The notes under the pieces: generated by a model
What the model saw: only the letters and a program-made list of their open reading frames with translations
Database searches by the model: none
What the model was told of the DNA's origin: nothing
Source: a virus
Virus record (IMG/VR): IMGVR_UViG_3300037558_001396
Coordinates: 1 to 26,203 of that record
Reading direction: 5' to 3' (one strand)
DNA: 26,203 bases
Program-made: the position numbers and the translations under genes
Shown: positions 3,260 to 25,899 of the stretch, piece after piece
Layout: each line of letters starts with the position of its first letter
Numbering within the stretch: position 1 is the first letter of the stretch

Positions 3260-3697
3260 ATGAGCAAAGTAAAAACATTAGAAAAGTACACGGCCGCTAT
3301 GCTTGCCGTTGCGGAATACCGCAAAAAGCATGCAAAGTTTTTTGACGAATACGACGTGCTACGCCTAGCAGTAACAGACGCCGAGGCCGCACTTAAAGAG
3401 GACGTCAAAGACAACTTAAAAATGAACGTAGCAAACGAGCATGTCCGGGTGACGTACTCACCGGCATTTAGCAAGGGCTACAACGTTAAAACGATACTCG
3501 AGAAAGTATCACCGGCAGTTAAAAAGAAACTGTACGACCTCAAAGCAATTGTTGTTGAGGAAAAGGCCGACAAAAAGAAAATCGAGGAAGCCGTAGAGCA
3601 AGGCATTATCCCGGTTGACGTGAAGCAAGCGGCCTTCGAGGAAAAGGAACTTGCACCACGCGTCACCATTAAAGAAGTTGACCATGAGCAAGAGTAA
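3260..3697 (+). CDS. Hypothetical protein, recombination operon
   Basis: A 145-residue, highly charged, mostly helical protein. Helices rich in Lys, Glu and Ala at about residues 5-55 and 95-115 suggest a coiled coil. The middle (NEHVRVTYSPAFSKGYN) looks like a beta hairpin. The next gene starts 14 nt inside its 3' end. Position and helical content recall Gam-like or Gp157-like accessory proteins, but I see no diagnostic motif. Confidence 0.55.
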   Translation: MSKVKTLEKYTAAMLAVAEYRKKHAKFFDEYDVLRLAVTDAEAALKEDVKDNLKMNVANEHVRVTYSPAFSKGYNVKTILEKVSPAVKKKLYDLKAIVVEEKADKKKIEEAVEQGIIPVDVKQAAFEEKELAPRVTIKEVDHEQE

Positions 3698-4478
3698 AAA
3701 AACAACAAAAAAGAAAAAGACCACGCGCAAAAAGAAGGCGTCCGGGTTGGTGAAAATCACTAGCCCGGTAAAGAAGGACGCCCAATTTTTCGTGGCAAGT
3801 GAGTTGGCCGACGACCGCCTTATTGGCCAAGAGCTTTTGGGGCAGACGTCAAAAGGCCTAGTGTACGAGTACGAAAACAAAGACGGCGACAAAATACAAG
3901 GCCTATCGTACCTTGGTGTACGTGAAGCGGTCCGGGTAATTAACCGGGACCGAAAGAGTGGCCACATTATACAAGTGAGTGACAAGCCGCCGATTATTCA
4001 ACGCGACGTCACAATGTATGGCCAAGAGGGTGTCGAGGTACAAGTGTACGCAATTGACATTGAAGGCGGGGGCGGACTATGGGGCATGAAGTTTGAACCA
4101 TGGCAACGCATTGTCGACGGAAACGGAAGCACAGAGTACAACCGGTTTGCACTTGAAACAGCTTTGTCAAAGGCACAGCGCAACGCAATGTTTGGGCTAT
4201 TGCCGGCACACTTGGTTGAGGACGTCATTAAGAAGTTTGCGAAGGACAAAGAGCAAGTCGTTAAGCTCGACGCACCAAAGGAAACAACGCGTGCGGTTAA
4301 AGCAAAGAAAACGGCAGACGATAAACTATACCGGGCGACACTCGACCGTGTAGGAAAAATAAGCGACAATAAAGTTGGACTTGAGCAAACACTTGAGAAG
4401 GTCGACAAAATGCCACTCAATGCACGACAGCGTGCGACAGTAAGGCGCAAAATTACTGGATACCTTAAAAAGCTATGA
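3684..4478 (+). CDS. Probable single-strand annealing / recombination protein
   Basis: The 264-residue product starts at the ATGAGC overlapping the preceding gene by 14 nt, rather than at an in-frame ATG 33 nt earlier. A Lys-rich N-terminal tail (residues 1-20) precedes a globular domain. Its end, FALETALSKAQRNAMFGLLP, resembles the closing helix of Rad52/ERF-type annealing proteins and related phage recombinases. A helical, basic C-terminal segment follows. The overlapping ATGA with a RecB-like nuclease gene supports a Red-type exonuclease/annealase pair. The family assignment is inference. Confidence 0.45.
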   Translation: MSKSKKTTKKKKTTRKKKASGLVKITSPVKKDAQFFVASELADDRLIGQELLGQTSKGLVYEYENKDGDKIQGLSYLGVREAVRVINRDRKSGHIIQVSDKPPIIQRDVTMYGQEGVEVQVYAIDIEGGGGLWGMKFEPWQRIVDGNGSTEYNRFALETALSKAQRNAMFGLLPAHLVEDVIKKFAKDKEQVVKLDAPKETTRAVKAKKTADDKLYRATLDRVGKISDNKVGLEQTLEKVDKMPLNARQRATVRRKITGYLKKL

Positions 4479-9605: not shown

Positions 9606-9923
9606 ATGCGGGTATTCAAACAAGTACCATTTCCGGCACATGTGCGCCGACCTTCAAAACTCGCCGCATTGTTGGCAGAGAGGATTAAGTACATGTTTGA
9701 AATTGAGGTTGAGCCGGTCATTATCCGGCACCCCGGCAGTTACTACAAAACGCGGGAGTTTCGCTTTAACTGGTCAATGAGGACTTATTGCGGTCGGTAC
9801 GAGATTGCGTGTTACGAACCGGCCGGGGAAATGGCAAGGAAACCGGCATGGCATGTATTGGACCAAGTGCCTTTGCTCGCCTATCAATCAAACACGCGCA
9901 TTACTGGAAAAATAATTTATTGA
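9606..9923 (+). CDS. Small hypothetical alpha/beta protein
   Basis: A 105-residue product starting 2 nt after the previous stop. It has an amphipathic helix (LAALLAERIKYMFEI) and then strands with aromatic residues. No motif of a known family is visible. Codon use matches its neighbours. Confidence 0.5.
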   Translation: MRVFKQVPFPAHVRRPSKLAALLAERIKYMFEIEVEPVIIRHPGSYYKTREFRFNWSMRTYCGRYEIACYEPAGEMARKPAWHVLDQVPLLAYQSNTRITGKIIY

Positions 9924-9927
9924 AAAC

Positions 9928-10350
9928 ATGGGATACCAAGTATACAGAATTGGAAAGGACACGGGCGGCTACCGTCACGGCGGGTACGGTGTACCGACAT
10001 ATTGCGAACACCCGGAGTGTAACGAGGAAATTGACCGTGGCATGGCATTTGCTTGTGCCGGCGAGCCGTTTAGTGAGATAGGGTGCGACCGGTACTTTTG
10101 CAGTAAGCACTTGCAAATGGAGTGCTTTAAGACCGACGGCGACGAGGGGACGTGCGACCATGAGGACAATTGTAATTGCGAGTGCAAGGAAGTGTGCGAA
10201 AGGTGCGCTACCGGTAAAGACCCGTTTCCTTACAAACCGGAACACCCGGAATGGGTCGCGCATGTTTTGACGCATGAGAGTTGGAACGAGTGGCGCGAGG
10301 AAAACCCGGAATTAGTAGAAAAATATAAAAGAGAAAATGAAAAAAATTAA
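9928..10350 (+). CDS. Cys/His-rich multi-zinc protein
   Basis: This 140-residue protein contains at least twelve Cys. They are arranged as CEHPEC, then CDRYFCSKHLQMEC, then CDHEDNCNCECKEVCERC. The first part resembles treble-clef or FYVE/RING-like zinc sites. The acidic C-terminus is helical. It overlaps the methyltransferase gene by 14 nt, so both are probably translated together. Protein or DNA binding is likely; nothing specific can be claimed. Confidence 0.55.
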   Translation: MGYQVYRIGKDTGGYRHGGYGVPTYCEHPECNEEIDRGMAFACAGEPFSEIGCDRYFCSKHLQMECFKTDGDEGTCDHEDNCNCECKEVCERCATGKDPFPYKPEHPEWVAHVLTHESWNEWREENPELVEKYKRENEKN

Positions 10351-11380
10351 AGTATTGAGCTTGTTTGACGGTATCAGTTGTGCGCAAGAGGCATTAAAAA
10401 AACTCGGGTACGACCCGGAGTATTACGCAAGTGAGGTGGACAAGTACACAATAGAGGTTACACAAAATCAACACCCGGAAACAAAACAACTCGGAAGCGT
10501 TGAGGACATAAACGGAACCGACTTTGCCGGGGTTGACTTAATAATTGGCGGGTCGCCTTGTCAAGATTTAAGCGTTGCGAAGGTTAACAGAGAAGGCCTG
10601 GCCGGAAAACGTAGCAAGCTATTTTTTGACTTTGTACGTATCTTAAAAGAAGCAAAACCAAAATACTTTGTACTTGAAAACGTGGCGAGCATGAACCGGG
10701 AAAGCAAAGAAAAGATTACAGAGATTTTGGGAGTGGAACCAATAATGATTGACGCCGCCTTGGTTTCGGCTCAATCACGTAAGCGTTTGTTTTGAACGAA
10801 CATTAAAGGTATCGAGCAACCAACCGACCGAGGCATTATGCTTAAGGACGTTATAGAGAGTGGATTTACACCCGAAGCAAAAGCAAGAACTATAACCGCC
10901 TCATATAGCAAAGGTGCAAATGTAAAAAACCTTGGGACACATAGAGAAAGGACATTGGTTTGGTTAAAGCCGGTGCAGGTCGGAACCGTGGCAAAAGGAA
11001 TGTCGGGGCGCGTATATTCAATTGACGGAAAAAGTATTGCACTAAAGGCAAATGGTGGTGGGTCGGGCGCCAAAACCGGGCTTTACGAAATATCCGGTTG
11101 CGCGAGTAGGACATTTCCACGACAAAAGAAACCGGGAGTGAAAAGAGAAAAGCAAATTGAGGTAAGAAAAGACGGGAAGGCAAACACTATAACGAGTGTT
11201 GCCGGGGACAGTATGCTTTATTGGAAAAACTACGTAAGACCATTAACGCCGGTGGAGTGTGAACGCTTGCAGTCGTTGCCGGACAACTACACCGAGGGAA
11301 TATCAAAAACGCAAAGGGTTAAGGCACTTGGCAACGCCTTTAACGTGGAAGTCATTAAACACATTTTAAGCAACATGTAG
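10337..11380 (+). CDS. DNA cytosine-5 methyltransferase with one in-frame TGA
   Basis: Read through one stop, this 347-codon frame has all major m5C methyltransferase motifs. Motif I is FDGISC at 10-15. Motif IV is GGSPCQD with catalytic Cys75. Motif VI is ENV at 114-116. Motif VIII is QSRKRLF, then TGA at codon 153 (10793-10795), then TNI. Motifs IX-X are RPLTPVECERLQ and LGNAF. The family normally has Trp after RKRLF, so TGA replaces TGG exactly. Flanking frames are uninterrupted and motif-rich. It may be a recent nonsense change, a sequence error or readthrough. Truncation at 10795 would remove motifs IX-X and the target-recognition domain. Likely role: protecting phage DNA from host restriction. 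Confidence 0.85.
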
Positions 11381-21397: not shown

Positions 21398-21437
21398 TAG
21401 AGCCAATTAGCATGGAAACGTGAGCGGACAAAAAACC

Positions 21438-24400
21438 ATGCCAAAACTAAATAATTTCAAAAAAAAACATAAAAACGCATATTCGTATGAAGCCAAAGAC
21501 GACGTGCGTGACCGTATTGAGGTGGAAGTCGGAGATATAATGCAAGACGACTTCATGCCCCAGATTAAACTAAAGCGTTGGGATAATGAGGTGAACTTAT
21601 CGGTGCGCCTAAAAGAAAACATGCATGGCGCTATCACGTTGGATGGTGCGGGTGATATAGTAACATTAGCCGACGACAAAAAGAGTGTAAAGTTTTATAA
21701 CGTATCAAAAGACATTAGTAAGTACCACGACCCAACATTTGTTCGAGTGGTACGGAATTATGGTGTGGCACCAGAGCGTTTTTTGAGTACGTACGAGTTT
21801 AATAAAAATGTACGTGGCAACAAATCTCAAATTGCATTTATAAGCGTCGTAGATAGACCGATGCTTTTTTTGCTCGGCTCTAGTAACTTAGTTAGTGACT
21901 TTTACTATGAGGACATTAGATTACCAGTATATAGACTTCTTACGGGGTTTTCGTCAAACCCAATGTATATAGACAAAGGAATGGTGATGTTGAGTATCGA
22001 ACACTCTAGAGCAGAAGATATACGGCACGCTTTCATGGATAATGTCGCAAAAGGGCTATTGGCGTATGGGTTTGAGAGTAAACATTTCAGAGTGTCACGC
22101 AGTAAGAAGTTATTATACAAAGAGAAGAAGATTGTATCTACTTCAATAGAGGATAATTTATTTGGCGCATACGTAAACTTTGATTGTGAGTATAACAAAT
22201 CAATGGAGTTGTATCGTGCAGGTGTTAAGTATGACAGTCAGGACGAGGTCGGTACCACGTATGGTAAGTTGCATAGTATAAACGCAGACATACCACAAGA
22301 GAAGTTTGTCGAACATGTGGTATTTGAAACATTGAGCGCATTAGGTATACAGCATAAAATATCAAAGCTAACTGTTGCGGAAGAAAGAGCAGTAGAGGCG
22401 AAAGAAAAAATTGCAATAAGCGATGAGTGGAGGAAAGATATGGTTCGCAAAGACAAGTTAGGTATGCACGACACCGAAGGTTTTGAGTTTGAGCTTGAAC
22501 TACAAAAACCACCAGAGAGCGGTATTTTTAGGTTTACAATACAAACAAAGGGGTTAGATTTCTTTTATCAACCGGCACTTACATCAGAAGAAAAATCAAA
22601 AGGATTACATCGTCCGTACGACGTTGAAGGTAGTTATGCTGTTTATCATAAAAAAAGAAAAGGTAACATTATTGGGGGCAAAGATTATAAGACAGGTAAA
22701 GCATTTCATATTTATAGACCATACGCAGAAGACGCAAATGGCGACAGAGAATGGGGTCACTTAACTGTCGACGAAAAGAACGGAGAGCTTAAAATGGAGT
22801 TTAGCAAAGAGTGGCTAGACAGCGCAGCTTACCCAGTGAGAGTTGACCCAACATTTGGTTATACTAGCGTTGGTGCTTCTAGTGCGGATATGTCGTCACA
22901 ATATACCAGTTTCGGCTCGGCACAACAATACGCAGTCGGAAGTGGGTTTGACTTGGACTCAATAAGTATGTATGTATCGCAGCCCTCCGGCGGTTTCGCA
23001 ATAAAGGCAGCGTTATATGACGACAATGGCTCAAATACTCCAAATAACAGGCTCGCACTTGGCACGGTAACAGTCAGTACGACCGCAGCGTGGAAAACAA
23101 AAACTTTAGTGTCCAACGGTAACTTGACCGGTAACTATTGGGTGCACTGGTCAGAAGACGCAAACGGTGACGCATATATAGGCAGAGGCCAGATATATTA
23201 CGACACAGTATCGTCCGGCACTTTGTATACAGCGTCAGACAACGATGATGCCTATGTGATGAATGGTGACCCTTGGGGTGGCACAAATGGCATAAACACG
23301 GTAACAATGCAATATTCTATATACGCAACATATACAGCGGGCAGCACAGCATATACAAAAAACCTTACAGAGTCTATAACTTTAGTAGATACAAAAACAA
23401 TACAAACACAAAAATCTTTTAACGAAGTTATAATAGTATTAGACACAATAGCGAAAAAGTCAGCAAAGGTGTTTACAGAAAACATCACGCTTAGCACTGC
23501 TATTGCAAAACAAATTGCGCATACTTTTGTTGAGGCAATCACTTTGGCGGACTCTATAACAAACCAAACGAGCAGACTATTTACCGAGTCAATCACATTG
23601 GCAGATACTATCGCAAAAACCATGGTGCGGTCACTCACCGAGGCGATAACGCTCACAGACACACTCACACGCCAAACTCAACGGATATTTACAGAAACCG
23701 TCACATTGGCCGACAGCATAGCGAAACAAGCTCAAAAATCGTTCGTAGAGGCGATTACGCTTGTAGATAGCATATTGACCCAAGCAACGCTATTTAAGGT
23801 GCTCACGGAAGCCGTGGCGTTGACTGATAGCATAAAAAAACAGCTTTCCCGGTCATTTTCGGAAACAATCACGCTCACAGACGTACTATCAAAAATCGGT
23901 ACTTTTTTCAAATCGTTGGTTGAGGCAGTAACCCTCACGGACTCATTGAGCAAAAAGCCGGTAAAGTCATTCACCGAGTCAGTCAGTTTGTCGGATACAA
24001 TCACCAAACAAACTGCGCACGCTTTTGTGGAAGTGGTGACGCTCACAGATACAGTAACACGGCAAATCAATCGGACGTTTACAGAAGTGGTCACGTTGGC
24101 AGATAACATCACAACACAAGTTGCCCGTGTGTTCATAGAAACAATTGCACTAACGGACACATTGAGCAGACAAATTGGCAAGTCATTTACCGAAACAATT
24201 GTGCTTGCAGACACATTGAGAAAACAAACACAAAAGTCTTTCACCGAGTCAGTAACTTTGGCGGACGCTATAAACACCCTCACGGTATTTGGTAGAGTAT
24301 TCACAGAAACCGTGACGCTCACTGCAACATTGACCGTCAAAACACTTATGAGCAAAGGCAAGATTGTTTTGCTCACAATCGCCGATAAAAGCATTACTGC

Positions 24401-24521
24401 AATACGCAATACAAGCAAAGCAATTTTGCGCACTATAAAAGACGACAAAAATATAGTAAAATTAAAGAGTACAGACAAGGCAATTTTGCCGTCAAAAAAT
24501 AAAGACCAAACAATACTATGA
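21438..24521 (+). CDS. Large tail or receptor-binding-type protein with 18 repeats
   Basis: The 1027-residue product starts at the ATG in AAAAAACC-ATG; a GTG at 21420 would add 6 residues. Residues about 1-470 are a mixed domain ending WLDSAAYPVRVDPTFGY, typical of large phage surface proteins. About 471-640 are a Ser/Thr/Gly beta domain, possibly carbohydrate-binding. Residues 643-972 are 18 tandem repeats of consensus FTEAITLADTIxKQ-, 15 of 18 residues and 3 of 20. A Lys-rich tail with IxKAIL-type mini-repeats follows. Base composition is more AT-rich and differs from its neighbours. Likely host-range determinant; no enzymatic motif seen. Confidence 0.7.
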   Translation: MPKLNNFKKKHKNAYSYEAKDDVRDRIEVEVGDIMQDDFMPQIKLKRWDNEVNLSVRLKENMHGAITLDGAGDIVTLADDKKSVKFYNVSKDISKYHDPTFVRVVRNYGVAPERFLSTYEFNKNVRGNKSQIAFISVVDRPMLFLLGSSNLVSDFYYEDIRLPVYRLLTGFSSNPMYIDKGMVMLSIEHSRAEDIRHAFMDNVAKGLLAYGFESKHFRVSRSKKLLYKEKKIVSTSIEDNLFGAYVNFDCEYNKSMELYRAGVKYDSQDEVGTTYGKLHSINADIPQEKFVEHVVFETLSALGIQHKISKLTVAEERAVEAKEKIAISDEWRKDMVRKDKLGMHDTEGFEFELELQKPPESGIFRFTIQTKGLDFFYQPALTSEEKSKGLHRPYDVEGSYAVYHKKRKGNIIGGKDYKTGKAFHIYRPYAEDANGDREWGHLTVDEKNGELKMEFSKEWLDSAAYPVRVDPTFGYTSVGASSADMSSQYTSFGSAQQYAVGSGFDLDSISMYVSQPSGGFAIKAALYDDNGSNTPNNRLALGTVTVSTTAAWKTKTLVSNGNLTGNYWVHWSEDANGDAYIGRGQIYYDTVSSGTLYTASDNDDAYVMNGDPWGGTNGINTVTMQYSIYATYTAGSTAYTKNLTESITLVDTKTIQTQKSFNEVIIVLDTIAKKSAKVFTENITLSTAIAKQIAHTFVEAITLADSITNQTSRLFTESITLADTIAKTMVRSLTEAITLTDTLTRQTQRIFTETVTLADSIAKQAQKSFVEAITLVDSILTQATLFKVLTEAVALTDSIKKQLSRSFSETITLTDVLSKIGTFFKSLVEAVTLTDSLSKKPVKSFTESVSLSDTITKQTAHAFVEVVTLTDTVTRQINRTFTEVVTLADNITTQVARVFIETIALTDTLSRQIGKSFTETIVLADTLRKQTQKSFTESVTLADAINTLTVFGRVFTETVTLTATLTVKTLMSKGKIVLLTIADKSITAIRNTSKAILRTIKDDKNIVKLKSTDKAILPSKNKDQTIL
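23364..24353 (+). repeat. 18-unit protein-coding tandem repeat, 54-bp period
   Basis: The 990 bp encode 18 units: 15 of 54 bp and 3 of 60 bp, which sums exactly to 990. Each unit reads F/L-T/V-E-x-I/V-T-L-x-D-x-I/L followed by a polar/basic stretch. Units are diverged in DNA but conserved in protein, so selection has kept the fold. The pattern predicts a beta-solenoid or beta-fibre shaft. Confidence 0.85.
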
Positions 24522-25440: not shown

Positions 25441-25899
25441 ATGGCATTTCAACTCGCATGGAACATTGAAGGTGAGCAACAACTTTTGCGTAACCTTCGG
25501 GGAGTAAAAGAAACCATGGGGGATTGGAAACCGGCCTTTGACAAAACAGCACGTGACCTTAAAAGAGTTTTTGCAAATGATGTTTTTTCAAGCAAAGGTC
25601 GAGCAGTAGAGGAAAACTGGCCACCACTCAAACCGCAATACCTTGCACAGAAACGCGCTCAAGGTTTCTCGGACCAACCACTTGTAAAGACAGGCAAAAT
25701 GCAAAAGTCGTTTAAGTCACTGGTGAAGGCAGACAGCGCGACGATATGGAACGCAGTAACATACTTCCGGTACCACCAATCAAACAAACCACGTACAGTG
25801 CTTCCACGACGAGTTATGATGAAGCTAGGCAATGACCAAAAAGCAATGGTGGTAAAGATTTTCCACACGCATTTTGTAAATAAATTAAAAAGAACATGA
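25441..25899 (+). CDS. Phage virion morphogenesis/tail completion protein (Mu gpG-like)
   Basis: The 152-residue product has the Mu gpG/P2 gpS signature: ENWPPLKPQYLAQKR, then PLVKTGKMQKSF, then VTYFRYHQSNK, then LPRRVMM. Family members join head to tail or aid virion assembly. It starts 2 nt after the connector stop and overlaps the next gene by ATGA. Length is typical. Confidence 0.8.
   Translation: MAFQLAWNIEGEQQLLRNLRGVKETMGDWKPAFDKTARDLKRVFANDVFSSKGRAVEENWPPLKPQYLAQKRAQGFSDQPLVKTGKMQKSFKSLVKADSATIWNAVTYFRYHQSNKPRTVLPRRVMMKLGNDQKAMVVKIFHTHFVNKLKRT

Follow-up and report, generated by a model that had tools for sequence, protein, structure and literature searches.

Split 5-methylcytosine (m5C) DNA methyltransferases of the M.AquI type are broken past motif VIII, either ahead of the variable region or inside it (PMC3404938). 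An interruption by a stop codon is found in the Vibrio phage ICP1_2006_E (MH310934.1; locus L021:1495-2499), whose methyltransferase carries one in-frame TGA in motif IV, past residue 77, and is annotated as two pieces for that reason. Four further records of the ICP1 group match this region at 99.8-99.9% identity; ICP1_2006_D and JSF5 carry the methyltransferase annotated as one full-length coding sequence, and the other two records bear similar labels. No discussion of the ICP1_2006_E interruption was found in the literature searched. Here, we have analysed a related case in the virus record IMGVR_UViG_3300037558_001396, a single contig of 26,203 bases (the window) that was studied as a consensus sequence. 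A cytosine methyltransferase gene of this phage is interrupted by a single TGA, which we read, with a probability of about 0.6, as a nonsense mutation that arose recently in a methyltransferase the phage can probably do without.

The gene occupies 10337-11380 on the plus strand and forms one continuous frame whose sole interruption is the TGA at 10793-10795. The unshifted frame and its single TGA had been described in the original prediction, and on rechecking these coordinates proved exact. When the TGA is read as a residue, the frame gives 347 residues and matches PF00145 (C-5 cytosine-specific DNA methylase) from end to end (146.7 bits, residues 4-346; cut-off 22). Matched separately, the 152 residues before the stop reach 101.4 bits over profile positions 1-124, and the 180 residues that begin with the next in-frame ATG reach 46.6 bits over positions 249-321; the N-terminal part also matches phrog_116 with 144.6 bits. 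Beyond the TGA the frame continues for 194 codons without a stop, which has a probability of about 6e-6 from base composition, and the five other frames over the same stretch contain 4-11 stops each. In an alignment of ten sequences (A1), motifs I, IV, VI, VIII, IX and X could be placed on conserved columns, with P74 and C75 (PCQ, motif IV), E114 and N115 (ENV, motif VI), Q146, R148 and R150 (QxRxR, motif VIII) and G332 (motif X) invariant. That all ten motifs are intact, as originally claimed, is borne out for these six. The gene therefore has the whole-domain profile match, the catalytic motif and other motifs of PF00145, and what it does not have is an uninterrupted frame under the standard code. 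We take it to be a solitary phage cytosine-5 DNA methyltransferase.

The TGA lies three residues past the last Arg of motif VIII, ahead of the target-recognition domain, at a position where the family has Trp. This residue follows motif VIII (QxRxRLFW) in nearly every aligned homologue, is invariant in A1 and is present in 80 of the 80 sampled viral homologues that align at the site, a count biased by the fact that one of the two search patterns includes the Trp itself; the two orthologues from related phages described below were found without that pattern. Trp is also present in nearly all the remaining sampled loci with a good alignment at the site, an apparently recoded contig (L011) having Arg, and DNMT3A, the nearest solved relative by sequence, has Trp at the same position. 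TGA was found at the residue-153 site in none of the sampled homologues. The earlier assignment of the TGA to the family Trp position is thus confirmed.

Kin of the phage were found by searches with its terminase and capsid proteins. One of them, G003 (IMGVR_UViG_3300005096_000107), shares 75% identity in the terminase and 88% in the major capsid protein with the window phage, and it carries the same gene in the same neighbourhood upstream of the terminase genes (L019; 60% identical), but there the methyltransferase is intact and has Trp at the site. A second intact copy (L139; an open frame of 360 residues, 49% identical overall, Trp at the site) is found in G005, whose major capsid protein is 57% identical to that of the window phage. 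The original prediction would have been refuted by relatives that lack motifs IX and X; as these relatives are full-length, the outcome speaks against a true truncation in the family. In G001, whose terminase is 72% identical, no match to the methyltransferase was found anywhere in its 39-kb record, and the gene therefore looks dispensable in this phage group. Other copies of the window species were not found in viral contigs by a degenerate pattern across the site, megablast of the first 25 kb of the window against phage records gave no match, and a scan of genome contigs returned distant homologues only.

How long the stop has been in place can be judged from the part that follows it, which would be expected to drift in a gene broken long ago. 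The window gene and L019 are 73% identical before the TGA and 52% after it, and we considered whether the lower value reflects decay. This was rejected, because the intact pair L019 and L139 shows the same pattern, with 66% identity before the site and 44% after it; the drop is the ordinary divergence of the target-recognition region. Relative-rate tests of the downstream half against L019 with seven outgroups gave 7-14 private changes in the window gene and 7-21 in the intact L019, with no p < 0.15. When L139 served as partner or outgroup, the sole p < 0.05 reflected a higher rate in L139 rather than in the window gene. As the downstream half has not drifted, the comparison indicates that the interruption either arose very lately relative to these divergences or is a single-base error in the consensus.

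We favour a recent nonsense allele as the best reading. What is observed is an interrupted gene of a known family, with intact copies in relatives and no decay past the stop. A Trp codon would have changed to TGA very recently, directly past motif VIII, and ribosomes would stop there and release a fragment of 152 residues in which the catalytic Cys is present and the target-recognition domain and motifs IX-X are absent. This fragment is probably inactive, and on this reading the base would be genuine in the population of the phage. Now and then tRNA-Trp may misread UGA, so that traces of the full-length enzyme leak through. So understood, the case is a common kind of gene damage and not a new way of making proteins. 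Two points weigh against this interpretation. The TGA is known from the consensus sequence, and a one-base consensus error could be what separates a nonsense allele from an intact gene. In addition, the position of the break coincides with the division point of natural and engineered split m5C enzymes.

Second in the ranking, at a clear but minor probability, is an error of sequencing or assembly, by which the methyltransferase of the phage would be intact and the TGA a one-base error in a metagenomic consensus. It would account for the absence of any sign of decay in the downstream half and for the intact state of the close relatives, and the record is a single virus contig, known as a consensus. 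On the other hand, the other genes of the window that have homologues in two related phages read open, most of them matched at full length, and the contig is therefore not generally poor; the change, moreover, is a substitution and not an insertion or deletion in the preceding run of T.

Leaky or programmed readthrough, in which UGA is decoded part-time as Trp to give a regulated amount of full-length enzyme, appears improbable. In its favour, the TGA replaces Trp, the residue that a near-cognate tRNA-Trp would insert, the downstream half is conserved, and the stop is followed by A. The TGA A context is relatively leaky in E. coli. Here, however, the A is the first base of the codon for T154, a Thr nearly invariant in the family, so that the context is no evidence of selection, and three real genes of this phage also end in TGA followed by A. 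Within the window, possibly a genome fragment, no tRNA gene was detected, suppressors included, the 80 nucleotides from the TGA fold no better than shuffled sequences (z = 0.01), and there is no Rfam match at the site. Nor is the stop kept among the sampled relatives, which have Trp there. Nonsense mutation and sequence error, two of the three options in the original prediction, thus stay favoured, and the third, regulated readthrough, has no positive evidence here. Were it true, it would stand as an uncommon example of a phage DNA-modification enzyme controlled through a stop codon; nothing in our results supports it. Selenocysteine was also considered and not retained, as the site is a Trp site with no structure after the TGA. 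The idea that the TGA is kept on purpose, either through leaky decoding by the host tRNA-Trp or through a reinitiated second subunit, so that a limited amount of active methyltransferase would be made, has a low probability.

A further option, absent from the earlier list, is a two-subunit enzyme like M.AquI, in which products of 152 and 180 residues would assemble into an active methyltransferase, the second being started at the ATG at 10838 by reinitiation. This ATG lies in the interval where split m5C enzymes are divided, and a GAGG stands just upstream of it. For PHROG 17284, a family whose function is unknown, the alignment is confined to the C-terminal half of the methyltransferase (window 10745-11377, residues 137-346, motif VIII onward); this suggests phage proteins that consist of that part alone, and the family possibly represents naturally split phage enzymes. 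We argue that the start itself is not credible. In a start-context matrix built from the 36 ATG starts of the phage itself (median score 4.14), the ATG at 10838 scores -6.64, less than any of the 36 real starts, which makes a split enzyme unlikely; among other ATGs it ranks at the 32nd percentile. Motifs resembling Shine-Dalgarno sequences stand at 4 of 36 real starts, a share no higher than the 17% seen at other ATGs. Met at the residue-168 position also occurs in 6 of 81 aligned homologous segments, although a search of these homologues revealed no stop at the TGA site. The two fragments, furthermore, would not overlap, residues 153-167 being missing. Among annotated phage homologues opened because their annotation hinted at two features or at an unnamed product, none was a naturally split gene, all being single and full-length. 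Compared with the M.AquI type, then, the break is at the right position after motif VIII, but a credible second start is lacking and the split is not kept in relatives, L019 and L139 being unsplit. We give this arrangement a low probability, below that of readthrough. Gene starts across the window (1-26203) mostly lack a Shine-Dalgarno sequence and follow A-rich leaders whose last base ahead of the ATG is C or T, as expected for initiation of the Bacteroidota type.

Genome-wide reassignment of TGA to Trp, which the placing of the single internal TGA at a Trp site might suggest, is effectively refuted by the use of TGA as a working stop, since it ends 8 of the 42 listed genes of the window, homologues of the comparable ones end at or near the same place, and no conserved gene of the window needs another internal TGA. 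In this respect the original prediction was right. In two related phages, the homologues of three TGA-ending genes (3651-4478, 9606-9923 and 25441-25899) stop 0-4 codons from the same place, mostly at TAA; of the four ATGA overlaps once cited, we count three (791-794, 4475-4478 and 24518-24521). Apparently recoded contigs of metagenomic viruses, in contrast, hold many TGAs in the same gene. The m5C methyltransferase genes at L002:176-1510 and L011:2443-3339 have 14 and 9 in-frame TGAs, many of them at conserved Gly positions (FDGM, PCQGF, LGNGW), and their code resembles code 25 (TGA=Gly), which is that of Gracilibacteria/Absconditabacteria hosts.

Table 1. Features of the interrupted methyltransferase gene in the window
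Coordinates	Strand	Feature	Support
10337..10795	+	N-terminal part of m5C methyltransferase; motifs I-VIII including catalytic Cys75; 152 residues	PF00145, phrog_116, 73% identity to L019 here
10793..10795	+	In-frame TGA at residue 153, the family Trp site directly after motif VIII	
10796..11380	+	Same-frame C-terminal part with the target-recognition region and motifs IX and X; closes at TAG	PF00145, 46.6 bits for 10838-11377
10838..10840	+	First in-frame ATG past the TGA, residue 168; possible start of a separate C-terminal product	

Elsewhere in the window, positions 21420-24521 encode a late protein of 1033 residues, a probable tail fibre, whose C-terminal part is built from numerous degenerate repeats, each about 22 residues long (FTEAITLADTITKQ-like). 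Among the sampled loci, L056 and L007 are two m5C methyltransferase genes that adjoin each other in tandem in one phage contig.

In M.AquI and the M.SssI fragment pairs, as in the window gene, the division falls past motif VIII, ahead of the target-recognition region or inside it (PMC3404938). M.AquI, M.EcoHK31I and the M.SssI fragments differ from the window gene in that they are subunits translated separately, or engineered fragments, and have proper starts (PMC3404938), whereas the sole nearby downstream ATG of the window gene stands in a poor start context. Another counterpart is ICP1_2006_E (ORF229.2 / ORF229.1), where a homologous phage m5C methyltransferase likewise has one in-frame TGA, a frame open on both sides and near-identical relatives that are full-length; the difference is one of position, the stop of ICP1_2006_E lying in motif IV and that of the window gene after motif VIII. 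Of 80 metagenomic viral homologues, 1 (L093:2501-3517) likewise has an m5C methyltransferase that is complete except for a single in-frame TAA. Together with ICP1_2006_E, this suggests that interrupted phage m5C methyltransferases are an ordinary event of low frequency. If the nonsense allele in the window is real, it would be the second phage lineage after ICP1 with a freshly broken m5C methyltransferase while close kin keep the gene, and it would agree with a picture in which solitary methyltransferases come and go in phages as restriction by the host shifts.
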